DNA from: a virus
Virus record (IMG/VR): IMGVR_UViG_3300006805_000082
Coordinates: 1-34,906 of that record
Length of the DNA stretch: 34,906 nt
Strand: one strand, 5' to 3'
Positions 12,799 through 23,680 of this stretch are shown piece after piece. Within the stretch, counting starts at the first letter, position 1. Every line of letters starts with the position of its first letter. Both the position numbers and the translations under genes were made by a program. The notes under the pieces are model-generated. The model ran no database searches. It saw only the letters and a program-made list of their open reading frames with translations, and had not been told where the DNA came from.

Positions 12799-13270
12799 TC
12801 GTCATTGTCTCCGAGGACAGAATGCCCGGCTGCACCGTGCTATCCACGGTCAGAACCATCATCAGGTAGTTCCCCACGTCGCCCGTGGCGCTGTAGGGAC
12901 CGGCCCCAATCGTGAGGGGCGAACCGCTGGTGTAGGTGAATGCGCTGGTATAGGAGGCAATCGAGGTTTCTTCCGCCGGGGTGGTGTAGCTGGTGGTGGT
13001 TTTCCACGACAGGGAAACACCCGCGCTCCAGGCCTTCGCGCCGTCGGTATAGGCCACGATGTTGCTGATCTTGTCCGATGCGGGGGTATCCAGCTTGACG
13101 CGGATATATTTGATGTAGCTGTAATCCGTGCCAGCGCCGGGCACGACCATGGGATTGTTGGAATCAACCGTGGCGTTGTCGGCGTTCTTGAAACGGATGG
13201 TGCCCGAGGTCTTGTCGGTCGCGGTCTCGCCTGCGCCGTTTTTCTCGCGGATCAGAACTGTTGCGACCAT
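12779..13270 (-). CDS. Beta-rich structural protein, 163 aa
   Basis: The sequence runs as alternating Thr/Ser/Val strands with internal signposts SYIKYIRVKLDTPASDKISN and GNYLMMVLTVDSTVQPG, as in Ig-like or jelly-roll phage structural domains. Its ATG overlaps the portal stop (TAATG), so it is made together with the portal. No family is recognised. Head-surface or fibre-base protein are possible roles, inferred from position between portal and fibre-like genes. Confidence 0.55.
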   Translation of the reverse strand: MVATVLIREKNGAGETATDKTSGTIRFKNADNATVDSNNPMVVPGAGTDYSYIKYIRVKLDTPASDKISNIVAYTDGAKAWSAGVSLSWKTTTSYTTPAEETSIASYTSAFTYTSGSPLTIGAGPYSATGDVGNYLMMVLTVDSTVQPGILSSETMTIAYDEI

Positions 13271-15483
13271 TACTGCACCCCTATCGCTCGCCCGTCAGGG
13301 CCGCGCACGACCTGACGCATGACATCGCCCACCTGCACGCCCATTGCCTTGCCGTCAGGCCCGCGCACAATCGAACGCGGAGCCGACTGCATGGCCTTGT
13401 TCTCTTCCAGACTCCGCCCAATCGCCGCCATCTGCTGCTGGATGCCGTCCAAGGCACCACCAAGCCGCTGGTCAAGCATGGACATGGCCTGCGCCATCAC
13501 CTGCCCGACCTCGGCCAGCGCGTTGGAGTGGTTAATCAGGTCTTTCTGCTCGGGCATCATCATCTGCTGGGCGTTCATGGCCCGCTCGTCTGCCCGGTCG
13601 ATAAGCTCGATCTGCTTGACCTGAAGTTCCTGCTCCTTGATGCCCAATTCCTTGAGTTTCAAGGCTGCGTCGATCTCGAAATTCTTGCCCTGCATCAGCG
13701 TGGCCTGGGCGTCTGCCTCATCCTTCGACGCCTTGGCCGCTTCCTGCCGCAGCTTGATCTGTTGGGCCTGCTGCTGCATCGGGTCGGGCTTCTGGCCGAT
13801 TTCCTTGATCTTCTCGACCAAGCCTTCGGGCAACGGCGTGTATTCCAGCAGCAATCCCACGACGGGCGGGGTGAGCTGGTCCTTCAGCACGGGGAGAAGG
13901 GCCTGCAACACGCCAAAGACGCGCTCTTTCTCGTTCGGGCTGGTCGCCGTCTGGTCAACGATCACGTCGTACTTCACAGCGTCGGGTTGGCGAACGAGCG
14001 GGATATACTGCTCCTGCCCCGATTCCTTGCCGACAATGCGGATCAACCGGCCGTCCGAGATGTAGTTGGTGATGAAGTGCAGCAGAACCCGCCCCGACAT
14101 CTTGCGGAAGCGGCGCAGGCTGTCGAACAGCGGCGCAAGGATGGTGATTGCCGCCTGTTTACGCTGGTACTCGAGCACGCCGGCCTGCTGCCGGTCGGCC
14201 ATGCCCATCATTTCCTGGTTGACGCCAGAGACCTCGCCGAAAGCCTGCAAGGCAAGCTGCAACAGGCGATCCAGTCCGGTCGGAAACTGCGCCATCGGCT
14301 TGGGCTGGATTGCGCCCTCTTTCAGCGCGCCGGGATTGACCCATGTCACAGCGTCGGAACTAGTCCAGCTAGCCTCAAATTCATGCACATCCGGCACGGC
14401 GGATTTTTCCGCCATAACCCCGCCCTTGGCCTGCGTGTTCAGCACGTGCATGGACTGCGACAGCCACTTGTTGGCCCACTCCTGCGGGTCTCTCAGGGCG
14501 CGCACAACGCCGTACCAGAGATTGCGATTGCGGTCGTACTTGCCTGTGATCGCGCAGTAGCTGAAATGCTCGGGATCGGGCGCGGGGCCTTCGCTCAGAA
14601 TCTCGCCGCCAGCGACGAACACGCGACAGACCTTGGTCTTGCGGAACTTCGCCGCCTGCAAACGGTCCTTGCCGAACATCTTGAGCGACTGGCGGTAGAT
14701 GTCCTCGTCTACTTCCTCGGTCACGCCGGTAAGCGGGTTAACGACCTTCCAGCCCGTCGCCGCTTCCTTGTATTGATATTCCCAAACCCGGATATCGCGC
14801 TGTGCAGGGCTGTCGCTCATGCGGTTCTGGTAGGCGATCCGCTCGGTAACGCCCGTCTGCGTGTCGGCCAAGCTCTCCTCAAAGCCCTTCAGCGCATCGG
14901 CGCTGATATCGGCATCGGGAAACTGGGCGCGGAACTGGTCCTTGGTGAGGAACTTCTCGCGCAGCACCCAGCGGGCATCGTCCAGATTGGGTTTGCGTGC
15001 CGTCGCGTCCCACGCCATCTCCAGCGGATCGACGCGCTCGATCGCAACGTCCGTATCGGGGTTTTGTTCGTCGGTCAGACGAACCTCGGCCCAGCCCATG
15101 CCGCAGATCACCGCGTCACGGAACGCTGTGCTTTCCTCGGTATCGGCGTCGGTCTCGTCACGCACCCATTCCGCCGCAGCAGTCAGGATTTCGTTCGGCC
15201 GCGCATCGCCCTGCGTGCGCGGAATGAACCGCACTTCCTGGCGGTTGTTGATCTCAAAGCCGACGATGGCATCAACCACGGGAGCCACGCGGTTGAACAC
15301 AATGGCCGGGCGCTGCTGCTGGGCAAGCATGTCGAGGGCTTCAGCGTCCCACTGCTCGCCGCTGTAGAAGTCGTAGTCCTTGCGGGCTTCGTCGCGCCAC
15401 GATTGCTGATGCTCGCGCGCTTCCTTCCAGCAAGCCTTGATCTTTTCAAGGAGGTCGTCGTCGCTGTCGTAGTCGTCAGCCAT
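13270..15483 (-). CDS. Portal protein, P22-like
   Basis: A 737-residue protein, matching the length class of P22 gp1 (725). The N-terminal region has WRDEARKDYDFYSGEQWD, RPAIVFNRVAPVVDAIVG and the segment DAVICGMGWAEVR, all typical of the P22-like portal family. The C-terminal 200 residues are Gln/Lys-rich long helices (MQQQAQQIKLRQEAAKASKD) that would form the barrel. It stands just after the terminase genes (9-base gap). Twelve copies should form the DNA channel at the head vertex and bind the terminase and adaptor. Confidence 0.85.
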   Translation of the reverse strand: MADDYDSDDDLLEKIKACWKEAREHQQSWRDEARKDYDFYSGEQWDAEALDMLAQQQRPAIVFNRVAPVVDAIVGFEINNRQEVRFIPRTQGDARPNEILTAAAEWVRDETDADTEESTAFRDAVICGMGWAEVRLTDEQNPDTDVAIERVDPLEMAWDATARKPNLDDARWVLREKFLTKDQFRAQFPDADISADALKGFEESLADTQTGVTERIAYQNRMSDSPAQRDIRVWEYQYKEAATGWKVVNPLTGVTEEVDEDIYRQSLKMFGKDRLQAAKFRKTKVCRVFVAGGEILSEGPAPDPEHFSYCAITGKYDRNRNLWYGVVRALRDPQEWANKWLSQSMHVLNTQAKGGVMAEKSAVPDVHEFEASWTSSDAVTWVNPGALKEGAIQPKPMAQFPTGLDRLLQLALQAFGEVSGVNQEMMGMADRQQAGVLEYQRKQAAITILAPLFDSLRRFRKMSGRVLLHFITNYISDGRLIRIVGKESGQEQYIPLVRQPDAVKYDVIVDQTATSPNEKERVFGVLQALLPVLKDQLTPPVVGLLLEYTPLPEGLVEKIKEIGQKPDPMQQQAQQIKLRQEAAKASKDEADAQATLMQGKNFEIDAALKLKELGIKEQELQVKQIELIDRADERAMNAQQMMMPEQKDLINHSNALAEVGQVMAQAMSMLDQRLGGALDGIQQQMAAIGRSLEENKAMQSAPRSIVRGPDGKAMGVQVGDVMRQVVRGPDGRAIGVQ

Positions 15484-15492
15484 TACGCCTCC

Positions 15493-16926
15493 CTAGGCCG
15501 CCTGCCATGATCTGCCGAGATTCTTCTTCTTGCGCGAGTAGGCGCGGTACTTGTCCACGGCAACCGCCTTGTGATAGCCGCCCGCAAGCGTCAGCAAGAA
15601 CGCATCGGCAAGGTCGGGGCTGTGAAGCCCGCGCTTTTTCATGTCGTCCTTGCTCTCAACGACGATCTTGCCCGAGCTGGTGAACGTGTATTTCGGGGCC
15701 GTAAGTTCTGCGATCAACGCCGGATCATCCGGCATCATCACGTCCTTGGCGTCGAACCACTCGCGGCCCTTGAACCAGAGTTCGTCGCGGAACCGCATGT
15801 ATCGTTCGTTGGAAGAAGCAGCTTCACCCACGTTGATGCCACGGACAGGGAGGCCAAGCTCGCGCAGGCGATCCACAACGCCAGCACCAATGCCGATAAC
15901 GTCCACCAGGATTTCGCCGGGCCGTTCGTCATAGGCTGTCTGGTCCCATTCCGATTTGATCCAGCCCGCCGTCTGCATCAGGTCAAACTGCCGCTTGAAC
16001 TTGATCGACTCCAGCAGGCGATTGCACTGGCGCTTGGCTAGTGCTGTCCGGTCGTCGCCGAACCGGGCCACGTCCACTCCCCACACCGGGGCAAAGGTTT
16101 TGATGGGTTCGATCTTGCGGGTTAAGGCCGCCTCGACCAGAGACAGGCTGATAACCGCATCGTCCTCGGTGTCGGGAAATTCCCCCAGCACGCGCACCCG
16201 ATAGGCGTTCGAGTCCTTACCGTATTTGGTTACGATGTCCTCGATATGCCCTCGGGCGTTGGGCACGTCTTCCGAGTTAACACGCTGGGTCCAGAACTTG
16301 GCCCTGAGCGTCGTGTGGCTGTCGTAGAAATATCCGCTAGTCCGAGTCGGGTTTCCCAGCATCAGCAGCTTGGCTCCAGGTGTGGACAGGGCACCCAACC
16401 CGATCTCGAACACGATGTCGGGAATGCCCGAGGCTTCCTCGATCCAGAAGAACAGGTTGTCTTCGTGAAACCCTTGCAAGGCTTCAGGATTGTCCTTGCT
16501 GGCCGTTCGGGCCGTGGCAAAGGCGCTGTCAGGAGCCGATTTGCGCCGGATGCGCTCGGCGTCGATTACAATCTGGTCCTTAAGCTCGGCAGGCAGGTAT
16601 TGCGCCTGCTTGCGGATTTCAGGCCAAACGATGTCTCGAAGCTGGTCTTGAGAGTTGGCCGTGATCGGGATCTTGAACCGGGGTCGCGTGAACATGAACC
16701 AGAGGATCAGCCACGCGCCAAAGGTGGTCTTGCCTACGCCGTGACCCGCTCGAATGCTCAGGCGGTCATGCGTTCCAGCAGCCTCAAGGGCCTCTGCCTG
16801 CCATGGGTATGGGCTCAGGCCAAGAACGTCAGTGACGAATATCCGAGGGTTGTTCTTGCTCGCTATCAGCGCAAGCTGCCACGGCAGCCGCGATGCCGGC
16901 GCTGTCGAGGCGGTCGATGATTTCAA
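15493..16926 (-). CDS. terL: Terminase large subunit (ATPase/nuclease)
   Basis: A 477-residue packaging motor. Walker A is RAGHGVGKT (59-67) and Walker B is FFWIEEA (159-165, catalytic Glu pair). The RNase H-like nuclease domain shows Asp286 in VDVARFGDD, Asp342 in VDVIGIGAG and Asp438 in HSPDLADAF. The start is a TTG with GGAG 7 bases upstream; no later start fits because conserved sequence begins at once. It overlaps the small-subunit gene by 98 bases on the DNA but in another frame. The domain order and the SPDLADAF motif are typical of phages with P22-like heads. Confidence 0.9.
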   Translation of the reverse strand: MKSSTASTAPASRLPWQLALIASKNNPRIFVTDVLGLSPYPWQAEALEAAGTHDRLSIRAGHGVGKTTFGAWLILWFMFTRPRFKIPITANSQDQLRDIVWPEIRKQAQYLPAELKDQIVIDAERIRRKSAPDSAFATARTASKDNPEALQGFHEDNLFFWIEEASGIPDIVFEIGLGALSTPGAKLLMLGNPTRTSGYFYDSHTTLRAKFWTQRVNSEDVPNARGHIEDIVTKYGKDSNAYRVRVLGEFPDTEDDAVISLSLVEAALTRKIEPIKTFAPVWGVDVARFGDDRTALAKRQCNRLLESIKFKRQFDLMQTAGWIKSEWDQTAYDERPGEILVDVIGIGAGVVDRLRELGLPVRGINVGEAASSNERYMRFRDELWFKGREWFDAKDVMMPDDPALIAELTAPKYTFTSSGKIVVESKDDMKKRGLHSPDLADAFLLTLAGGYHKAVAVDKYRAYSRKKKNLGRSWQAA

Positions 16927-19268: not shown

Positions 19269-19645
19269 GCTGCCCTCGCAATCTGTGGCCTCGGTTTCTC
19301 AACCCATTTCCAGCCGTACTCGGTGCATAGCTGGTCTATCTGGTTCTTCCATTCTCCGGCGTCCGTGTGGTCCAGCGGTCCAAACCTCTGCGCTCTGGTC
19401 TGGCAGATGAATCGGCGCATGAACTCCTCCCAATCCGCTTTGGAAATTCTCAACGGTGCGCCAGCGGCCACGGCTTCCCGAGCCATCTCCATGGCAAAAA
19501 CCTTCATGCCCGCAACCAGATCGGCGGGCTTTCCAGACAACTTGGTTTGGCTCAACCAGATTTGGTATTCGCCGTGGATCCTCTCCCGGCGTCGGTGCGC
19601 GTCCGCATGGGCTTTCGGGGCCATCTCCTTGTCGGTGGCGCTCAT
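19265..19645 (-). CDS. Hypothetical protein, 126 aa
   Basis: Mostly helical and charged: HRRRERIHGEYQIWLSQTKL, then MKVFAMEMAREAV, ending with GWKWVEKPRPQIARAA. It is coupled by 4-base overlaps to the methyltransferase upstream and the 108-residue gene downstream. No family is recognised; placement beside a DNA methyltransferase does not by itself define its role. Confidence 0.5.
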   Translation of the reverse strand: MSATDKEMAPKAHADAHRRRERIHGEYQIWLSQTKLSGKPADLVAGMKVFAMEMAREAVAAGAPLRISKADWEEFMRRFICQTRAQRFGPLDHTDAGEWKNQIDQLCTEYGWKWVEKPRPQIARAA

Positions 19646-20343
19646 AGCATCGCCTCCTGCTTTGGCTTGGCAGGCGGTTCAATGAACATATCGGGCTGCT
19701 TGTAGGCTTCCTCGATCCGCTTGCAGGCAATGTCGAAGTAGCGTTCTTCAATTTCCACGCCGATGAACTTCCGCCCCAGCTTGGCGCAGGCTACGCCCGT
19801 GGTACCGCTGCCCATAAATGGATCGAGGATGGTTTCGCCTTCAAGGGAAAACCGCTGAACAAACCTGAGCATCACGCCCGGCGGTTTGGGGCAGCAGTGC
19901 GTTTTAGCCAGATCCCCGTGCGCCGGGATGACGCCGCCGCCCGCGAAATGGAAACGGTCAGATTTAATTATCCCGTTTACGTTCCCAAAACCGGGCAAAT
20001 CCTCCCCATAAAACAGCACCGGCTGCCATTGGTTAATTCCAAGAAACCCATAAGTGCTCGTGGTTTCCCAGGTCCACGCCCCGATCCATTTCGGAGTCGG
20101 GTAACGATGAATATTAGTAACTCCCGGCGTTATGATTGCGCGGCGAGCGGAAAGCACATAAGGGAAAAATCCATCTATAAGGACATCCAGATTTTCAGGT
20201 GTGTCCTCATAGGACAGATAATCAAAATTCAGCCCATACGGCGGATCGGTCACCACAGCATCGACCTTGCCCAGCGTCGGCAGGATTTCGAGGCAGTCAC
20301 CAAGGTACAGCGTGGCGTCGCCTATGCGCTCAATGCGGCTCAC
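19642..20343 (-). CDS. DNA methyltransferase, beta class (N6-A or N4-C)
   Basis: A 233-residue amino-methyltransferase. Motif IV TDPPYG (residues 32-37) comes before motif I, LDPFMGSGTTGVACA near residue 175, followed by FIGVEIEERYF. That order is the beta class, as in CcrM-like enzymes. No restriction partner is adjacent, so it is probably a solitary phage enzyme that protects DNA from host restriction or mimics a host methylation pattern. It overlaps the DUF1376 gene by 4 bases. Adenine versus cytosine N4 specificity cannot be read with certainty. Confidence 0.85.
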   Translation of the reverse strand: MSRIERIGDATLYLGDCLEILPTLGKVDAVVTDPPYGLNFDYLSYEDTPENLDVLIDGFFPYVLSARRAIITPGVTNIHRYPTPKWIGAWTWETTSTYGFLGINQWQPVLFYGEDLPGFGNVNGIIKSDRFHFAGGGVIPAHGDLAKTHCCPKPPGVMLRFVQRFSLEGETILDPFMGSGTTGVACAKLGRKFIGVEIEERYFDIACKRIEEAYKQPDMFIEPPAKPKQEAML

Positions 20344-22545: not shown

Positions 22546-23351
22546 GTCACCACCTTCATGATTGCCCTGCCGATGATTTCCGGGATTTGCGGGACGACGG
22601 CGTTGCCGAGGGATTTGACGCCCGAGGCGATTGCGCTTCTGTCCAGTTTTGTGGAAACCCCATCATCCATTCCACGAAGCGCCTCAAACTTGGTTTGCCA
22701 GTGATCGGCCCACCAAGCTCCTGTACGAGTTGCGTCATCAATCCGTCGCCGGATGTCTCCGAGCAACCGCGGCGGTTCCAATTGCCAGACACCGTTGGCG
22801 TTGCTAGACGCTTCAACTTCTTCCGCGCTCCAGAGCCACCATCCAGCGCCCGCGTTGCGCCTGAACGGCCGCTGGAACTGGTTGGCGTCGGCAATGGCGA
22901 TCCAAACGCGGTCACGCCCGTGGGGCGCGCCGAGGTCGGCAGCCGAAATGCAATCCCATTCCGCATCAAGCCCGTCCTCGGCCACATCTCCGAGAACTCG
23001 GCCCATCCCGAAACCCAACAACGCTGCCACGTTTTCCAAGATCGTGAACTTGGGTCGTACCAAGCGAATGGCTCGTAGTACCTCCCGATAGAGTCCTGAA
23101 CGCTCCCCGGTAACGCCGGCGCGTCGCCCGGCCAAGCTAACGTCTTGGCAAGGGAACCCGCCGCAGATGATATCTGCGCTGGGAAACTCTGCGTGTCGCA
23201 CGTCACCAAGGATGGGAACGTTGGGCCAGTGCTTGGCGAGCACTCGCCGGCAGAAGGGGTCGATTTCGCAGAAGGCGACGGTTCGCATCCCGGCCCGTTC
23301 GAGGCCGAGGCTGAAGCCTCCGATGCCTGAGAAGAGGTCCAGGACATTCAC
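22542..23351 (-). CDS. DNA (cytosine-5) methyltransferase
   Basis: A 269-residue C5 methyltransferase from the GTG that overlaps the VRR-NUC stop (GTGA); an ATG four codons earlier (23363) is the alternative. Motifs are in order: I DLFSGIGGFSLGLE, IV GGFPCQDVS with the catalytic Cys, VI ENV, VIII GAPHGRDRVWI, X GNAVVPQIPEIIGRAI. The target recognition region (about 155-230) is short, as in many phage enzymes. It probably protects phage DNA. A second long frame lies inside it on the same strand (22556-23347). Confidence 0.9.
   Translation of the reverse strand: MNVLDLFSGIGGFSLGLERAGMRTVAFCEIDPFCRRVLAKHWPNVPILGDVRHAEFPSADIICGGFPCQDVSLAGRRAGVTGERSGLYREVLRAIRLVRPKFTILENVAALLGFGMGRVLGDVAEDGLDAEWDCISAADLGAPHGRDRVWIAIADANQFQRPFRRNAGAGWWLWSAEEVEASSNANGVWQLEPPRLLGDIRRRIDDATRTGAWWADHWQTKFEALRGMDDGVSTKLDRSAIASGVKSLGNAVVPQIPEIIGRAIMKVVT
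22556..23347 (-). CDS. Overprinted 263-codon frame inside the C5 methyltransferase gene
   Basis: An ATG-started open frame, shifted +1 relative to the methyltransferase, spans nearly the whole gene. The translation includes FAWYDPSSRSWKTWQRCW, WPRTGLMRNGIAF, LPTPTSSSG and FVEWMMGFPQNWTE. From memory these resemble a recurring type of phage/prophage hypothetical protein (patterns SSSWRT, WPRSGMMR, PTP and WVEWLMGFP). Length alone proves nothing, because other shadow frames here are equally long. It is either a real dual-coding gene or a shadow of conserved methyltransferase DNA that databases have accumulated. Confidence 0.3.
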   Translation of the reverse strand: MSWTSSQASEASASASNGPGCEPSPSAKSTPSAGECSPSTGPTFPSLVTCDTQSFPAQISSAAGSLAKTLAWPGDAPALPGSVQDSIGRYYEPFAWYDPSSRSWKTWQRCWVSGWAEFSEMWPRTGLMRNGIAFRLPTSARPTGVTAFGSPLPTPTSSSGRSGATRALDGGSGARKKLKRLATPTVSGNWNRRGCSETSGDGLMTQLVQELGGPITGKPSLRRFVEWMMGFPQNWTEAQSPRASNPSATPSSRKSRKSSAGQS

Positions 23352-23680
23352 TTCACCCCCCATGCCTCTAGCGTGCCCTGTACCTCTGCGAGAGAGCGGC
23401 AGAGGGCATAGAGAGCGCCCGCTTCCCTTGCCTGCATTTCAAACACCGCTTGGGATTCCGATTGCCGCCCGGCGTCGGACTTCAATTCAATGAACGCAGC
23501 TTTGCCGCCGGGGAGAATGAAGGTGAAGTCGGGAACACCCGCCCTCCGGCCCATGCGCTTTGCCTTCACGCGGGCAACGACGGACAGATGGCCTTGCTGG
23601 TGCGAATGCCACCAGACCAGCTTGGGAAACTGTGCCCGCAGCCAGTCGGCTATGGTGACGTGCAGGCTGTATTCGCTCAT
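23348..23680 (-). CDS. VRR-NUC family nuclease
   Basis: A 110-residue PD-(D/E)xK nuclease of the VRR-NUC group. Seen motifs are RVKAKRMGRRAGVPDFTFIL, with the catalytic Asp in GVPD, and AAFIELKSDAGRQSESQ, with the Glu-x-Lys pair. These small enzymes process branched or Holliday-like DNA or act in phage recombination and packaging. It overlaps the ParB-like gene by 4 bases and the methyltransferase by 4. It could also act as a restriction-type nuclease with the adjacent methyltransferase, but resolvase-like processing is the usual view. Confidence 0.85.
   Translation of the reverse strand: MSEYSLHVTIADWLRAQFPKLVWWHSHQQGHLSVVARVKAKRMGRRAGVPDFTFILPGGKAAFIELKSDAGRQSESQAVFEMQAREAGALYALCRSLAEVQGTLEAWGVK

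Follow-up and report, generated by a model that had tools for sequence, protein, structure and literature searches.

Few long genes that code in two frames of the same strand are known from DNA phages, and most have been inferred from single cases. Among the C5-cytosine DNA methyltransferases (MTases), M.EcoHK31I is made from a small-subunit gene nested in the large-subunit gene in another reading frame, and M.EaeI is likewise a two-polypeptide C5 MTase. In the account given in PMC3404938 (citing Lee, Kam and Shaw 1995), M.EcoHK31I (YGGCCR) consists of a larger polypeptide with motifs I-VIII and X and a smaller one with motif IX, and its predicted TRD is placed in the large subunit. M.AquI also comprises two polypeptides, split in the variable region (PMC3404938). 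A hidden frame of another kind, the HNH endonuclease known as the ShiLan domain, has been described in mycobacteriophage methylases (PMC11855218).

The window analysed here, a virus record taken over its whole 34,906 bases, carries a C5-cytosine MTase gene (alpha), within which a second open reading frame (beta) is nested in the +1 frame (Table 1). The reading favoured here, with a probability of about 0.87, is that the two frames of this gene encode both subunits of one C5-cytosine DNA methyltransferase.

Reading frames of the locus

Alpha matched phrog_363 (E = 1e-73) and, over residues 6-156 only, PF00145 (E = 3e-38), and beta matched phrog_1008 over residues 60-187 (E = 5e-17), with no Pfam match for beta in the profile search. 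A first-pass annotation had drawn attention to the ATG-started +1 frame and to its motifs, all of which are present as described there. The duplex of GGGGGGTG with the anti-Shine-Dalgarno sequence had an energy of -10.6 kcal/mol, and a beta-frame start with good Shine-Dalgarno (SD) pairing was found in 194 of 249 related loci, the other two frames having one in 150 and 103 loci, so that the advantage of the beta starts is modest. Elsewhere in the window, the same phage harbored a second DNA methyltransferase-like gene (19642-20343, minus strand; phrog_67, E = 2e-52), and a 749-codon ORF starting with TTG (13261-15510, plus strand) lay antisense to the gene for a 737-aa portal protein (13270-15483, minus strand), this ORF probably being a codon-bias shadow.

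Table 1. Features of the nested gene, in window positions
Feature	Position	Strand	Remarks
alpha, C5-cytosine methyltransferase frame, 273 aa	22542..23363	-	motifs I-VIII and X; without canonical motif IX
alpha start codon	ATG 23363; GTG 23351 possible	-	
beta, hidden ORF in the +1 frame of alpha, 263 aa	22556..23347	-	own ATG at 23347
beta constrained part, about residues 80-240	22628..23110	-	frozen synonymous codons; AlphaFold2 strands 90-135, helix 221-228
beta motif WPRTGLMRNG, residues 122-131	22955..22984	-	P123, G126 and G131 at at least 90% (146 sequences)
beta LPTPT, TRD 'TL'-like	22880..22894	-	P153, T154 and P155 almost invariant
beta motif IX FVEWMMGFPQNWT, residues 224-236	22640..22678	-	matched by profile to motif IX of related MTases, where it is in frame
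alpha motif X GNAVVP, residues 253-258	22590..22607	-	
alpha motif IV, catalytic PCQ, residues 71-73	23145..23153	-	invariant (alpha alignment)
alpha motif VI ENV, residues 110-112	23028..23036	-	E110 and N111 invariant, V112 almost (alpha alignment)
Shine-Dalgarno-like GGGGGGTG	23354..23361	-	6 nt upstream of the beta ATG, within the first alpha codons

Selection on both frames

It had been cautioned in the first-pass annotation that long shadow frames are common in this DNA, and as far as openness is concerned the caution holds: the gene is GC-rich and the +1 frame was as open in 2.2% of 2,000 synonymous recodings of alpha, so that openness is weak evidence. In no other window gene tested was this frame so complete. 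The conservation of the frame, on the other hand, exceeded that of every recoding. Against a profile built without the window, the window's beta scored 231.9 bits, compared with a mean of 100.1 bits (SD 11.5, maximum 141.5) for 1,000 recodings. Moreover, in all 79 scorable loci, selected solely by their methyltransferase, in a sample of the 80 MTases closest to the window's and thus not evidence that all C5 MTases are nested, the +1 frame (165-291 bits) outscored all 50 of its own synonymous recodings (per-locus null maximum 101-168 bits), and the +2 and the three reverse frames of these loci never exceeded 20 bits. Single-chain C5 MTases do exist.

Substitutions in eleven close pairs of loci revealed the same dependence between the frames. 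Inside the overlap, the rates were 0.056 for changes altering both proteins, 0.167 for those altering alpha only, 0.136 for beta only and 0.615 for neither, and the corresponding rates outside the overlap were 0.036, 0.049, 0.307 and 0.464. The alpha-silent changes that alter beta thus fell from 0.307 outside to 0.136 inside, indicating that beta constrains the alpha-silent sites, and the rates also indicate a tolerance of alpha-altering changes that leave beta unchanged. A split at motif VIII was scorable in six of the eleven pairs, in which alpha was the more constrained frame before the motif and beta after it (alpha-only changes 0.263 versus beta-only 0.078 past motif VIII), so that, unusually, the named gene ranks below its 'shadow' frame in the second half. 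Among alpha-altering changes past motif VIII, the odds ratio of beta-silent versus beta-altering ones was 6.5 (p = 1e-25), and outside the overlap there was no such effect (p = 0.42). When the window was paired with L089, its nearest relative (71% identity), the overlap as a whole gave p = 0.003, with the signal confined to the part past motif VIII; before it the rates were 0.145 and 0.140, with no beta constraint visible, and the evidence for beta constraint there comes from the other pairs and from the frozen codons.

Synonymous codons were frozen across the 249 loci from about alpha codon 103 (R103) to 241 (D241), equivalent to beta residues ~98-236. The alpha codons concerned included R103 (CGA in 86%, background 27%), A128 (GCC in 97%, background 36%), G131 (GGG in 89%, background 23%), G235 (GGG in 94%, background 23%) and D241 (GAC in 99%, background 59%), whereas the upstream invariant catalytic codons G69, P71 and C72 lay far nearer to background. 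As codons were frozen only where beta is conserved, the constrained protein spans about residues 80-240, and beta is passive shadow over its first ~80 residues and in its tail beyond residue ~240. The proposal that the 263 codons form a large overprinted gene under selection in both frames is therefore borne out by the recoding, substitution and frozen-codon results for this central part and not for the two ends, and the resemblance that had been seen between the C-terminus and an out-of-frame GNAVVPQI belongs to the passive tail, outside the conserved protein. The comparison of homologues suggested there revealed synonymous-site constraint in both frames, and the frequent stops or free substitution of the alternative frame that would have spoken against a real gene were not what the homologues displayed. 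In short, purifying selection acts on both frames, and since both are under selection as proteins, both must be translated.

These results leave it scarcely credible that beta is no more than a passive shadow cast by an MTase gene that is GC-rich and conserved. Conservation of the MTase by itself does explain about 100 bits of the profile score, recoded alpha still scoring about 100 bits as an echo of it, and openness alone gives only p = 0.02; but the shadow reading was rejected at the family level by the recoding, substitution and frozen-codon tests, and the beta frame was open for at least 200 codons even in genomes of 33-37% GC.

Distribution and identity of beta

The search of beta against viral proteins recommended in the first-pass annotation led, in addition to phrog_1008, to 27 phage records and 113 IMG/VR stretches (tblastn), and a profile search also detected beta in bacterial genomes of many phyla. 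In all 305 loci the beta match overlapped a C5 MTase, nearly always in its +1 frame, and a non-redundant set of 249 related loci encoded the same protein in the +1 frame of their C5 methyltransferase. All 146 aligned beta relatives matched phrog_1008 and none of them matched Pfam. Stand-alone beta genes were absent among the 305 loci, except for one beta-like TRD/motif IX fragment that lies past a nested gene in Paenibacillus bovis (L315).

Several members of the family showed peculiarities of their own. The nested pair was also present in E. coli prophages of PT62 (L313:3700-4556) and PCP07014 (L312:3776-4577), the latter copy having an internal stop and a pseudogene annotation, and blastn probing of E. 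coli genomes returned prophage relatives only. An unusually long open beta frame was observed at L100:1550-3496 (about 650 codons) and L224:2407-4629 (about 740 codons). Single beta relatives matched HNH, NinG and endonuclease PHROGs, which perhaps points to hidden insertions of homing endonucleases resembling the ShiLan domain. In Paenibacillus plasmids (L314:1931-2998 and L315:2270-3713), extra TRD/motif IX segments (LNPAWVECLMGFP... and INPAWIECMMGFP...) followed downstream of the nested beta, with one extra copy situated in an ORF without an MTase match across it; these copies could possibly be specificity modules.

The identity of beta is suggested by its last conserved segment, LxPxFVEWMMGFPxGWT. 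An in-frame equivalent of this segment occurs just before LGNAVVP in the MTases of eight relatives (L198, L201, L218, L306, L042, L004, L007 and L267), to which the beta C-terminus was matched by profile with 98.6% probability (E = 1e-15), and the in-frame MTase profile in turn aligned to M.HhaI 273-314, 'KLHPRECARVMGYPDSY...FGNSVV', that is, to motifs IX and X. By this pattern, motif IX was located in beta in 238 of 249 loci, in the MTase frame in six and in neither frame in five (variants, truncated or broken copies), and in 244 of these loci motif X belonged to the MTase frame, usually 30-90 nt past the beta motif IX. Judged by sequence, the beta C-terminus is the motif IX of a C5 methyltransferase.

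Upstream of motif IX lie LPTPT repeats. In TRDs, the 'TL' motif P[STCA]PT is located 10-50 residues ahead of motif IX and continues as PT[ILV][TASV] (PMC2413257). In beta, an A or S comes after PTPT in place of PT[ILV][TASV], so the assignment is one of resemblance, and this region is best described as TRD-like. A different arrangement was encountered on an Embleya plasmid (L316:2409-3627), where alpha ends after motif VIII and only partly overlaps beta, and where the beta-frame ORF unites LPTPT, FVEWLMGLP (motif IX) and LGNSVVP (motif X) in one chain, a split that looks like an evolutionary link.

Structure models agreed with this division of labor. In AlphaFold2, alpha was confident in the catalytic domain and the motif X helix (pLDDT about 84-98 for residues 1-160 and ~81-93 for 251-270) and of low confidence at residues 161-250 (~49-64), which is where the TRD and motif IX belong, and the best fold match of the model was M.HhaI. 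Modelled alone by AlphaFold2, beta reached a mean pLDDT of 63, with confident strands at residues 90-135. Its model had no fold match in PDB and two matches with E < 1e-3 in BFVD, one of them by name a phage methyltransferase. Such a poor lone model is expected for a half-enzyme and would fit one, without amounting to proof. A PDB sequence match of beta to a glycolipid transfer protein (E about 0.006) was limited to a single 50-residue stretch and was taken as chance.

A proposed nested two-subunit methyltransferase and its known counterparts

In the proposed enzyme, alpha (frame 0) would supply the AdoMet-binding and catalytic domain (motifs I-VIII) together with motif X, and beta (+1 frame) the small DNA-recognising domain, made up of the TRD-like region and motif IX. 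Translation of beta would start inside the alpha gene, probably at the ATG at 23347, and the two chains would presumably both be needed, pairing into the usual two-domain C5 methyltransferase, which would methylate phage DNA at a putative recognition site. Of the genes examined in the window, none was identified as a partner restriction enzyme. This fits an orphan methyltransferase of the phage that may protect or mark the phage DNA.

Two other readings likewise accept the hidden frame as real. It is improbable that a single chimeric polypeptide is made by a ribosome that moves into the +1 frame once past motif VIII, translates the TRD and motif IX there, and returns before motif X. Past motif VIII alpha drifts and beta is conserved, and motif IX lies at the canonical distance from motif X, both in keeping with such a chain; yet both frames together constrain the stretch of DNA at alpha codons ~103-141 (frozen codons; odds ratio 2.9 in pooled pairs, p = 5e-6), which is hence translated twice, and this makes a single frameshifted chain unlikely; the reading would also need two precise shifts and leaves the SD-paired beta-frame starts of most loci against it. 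A real beta that is no MTase subunit, for example an anti-restriction factor or an inhibitor with MTase-like motifs, might be suspected from the conserved N-terminal half (WPxSGmmxNG), which has neither a named relative nor a Pfam match. It is very improbable, however, since beta possesses the motif IX missing from alpha, at the canonical distance from motif X, and since in relatives the same segment belongs to the methyltransferase chain. A search for PADLOC matches and other features in support of an anti-restriction role returned none, so that, of the 'anti-restriction or methyltransferase partner' considered in the first-pass annotation, it is the partner that is strongly favoured by motif IX and the TRD-like region.

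Beyond the window, the proposed two-subunit methyltransferase may represent a more general arrangement. We lean, with less assurance than for the window itself, towards a wider view of one of the commonest families of phage C5 methyltransferase, which occurs across many bacterial phyla: that a large share of it is an ancient, obligately dual-coding gene for complementary enzyme halves, that selection switches frames from one part of this gene to the next, and that small indels convert it to and from single-chain and AquI-like split forms. Hundreds of divergent copies allow both frames to be measured. If the two-subunit reading is true, many phage 'DNA methyltransferase' annotations describe half an enzyme, and cloning the annotated frame by itself or recoding it (as in codon optimisation) would be expected to wreck the second subunit and to yield false negatives when methylation is assayed; a convenient test case is the prophage copy in E. 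coli PT62. No earlier report of a phage-wide nested family was found in the open-access literature searched, and the breadth of the arrangement in phages seems to have gone unnoticed. The YGGCCR MTase of P. aminophilus proved to be an m4C enzyme and was set aside as irrelevant.

The two halves are already represented in the PHROG library, where PHROG 1008 ('DNA methyltransferase'), matched by the beta relatives, and PHROG 363, matched by alpha, stand as separate methyltransferase families and not as two frames of one gene. The ShiLan domain is similar in that a phage methylase gene contains a functional ORF in a different frame, but the methylase gene is another one (ShiLan gp65) and the domain is a homing element inserted into it, whereas beta is an integral, near-universal part of its MTase family. 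M.AquI differs in that its small subunit carries motifs IX and X, while motif X here stays in alpha; the Embleya plasmid split, in which IX and X occur together, looks like its counterpart. The closest likeness is to M.EcoHK31I as described in the literature, with motifs I-VIII and X on the large chain and motif IX on the small one, and the differences are that its predicted TRD is assigned to the large subunit, whereas the TRD-like region here is in beta, and that the gene in the window is a phage gene. On its architecture, the window's gene is classed with the M.EcoHK31I type.
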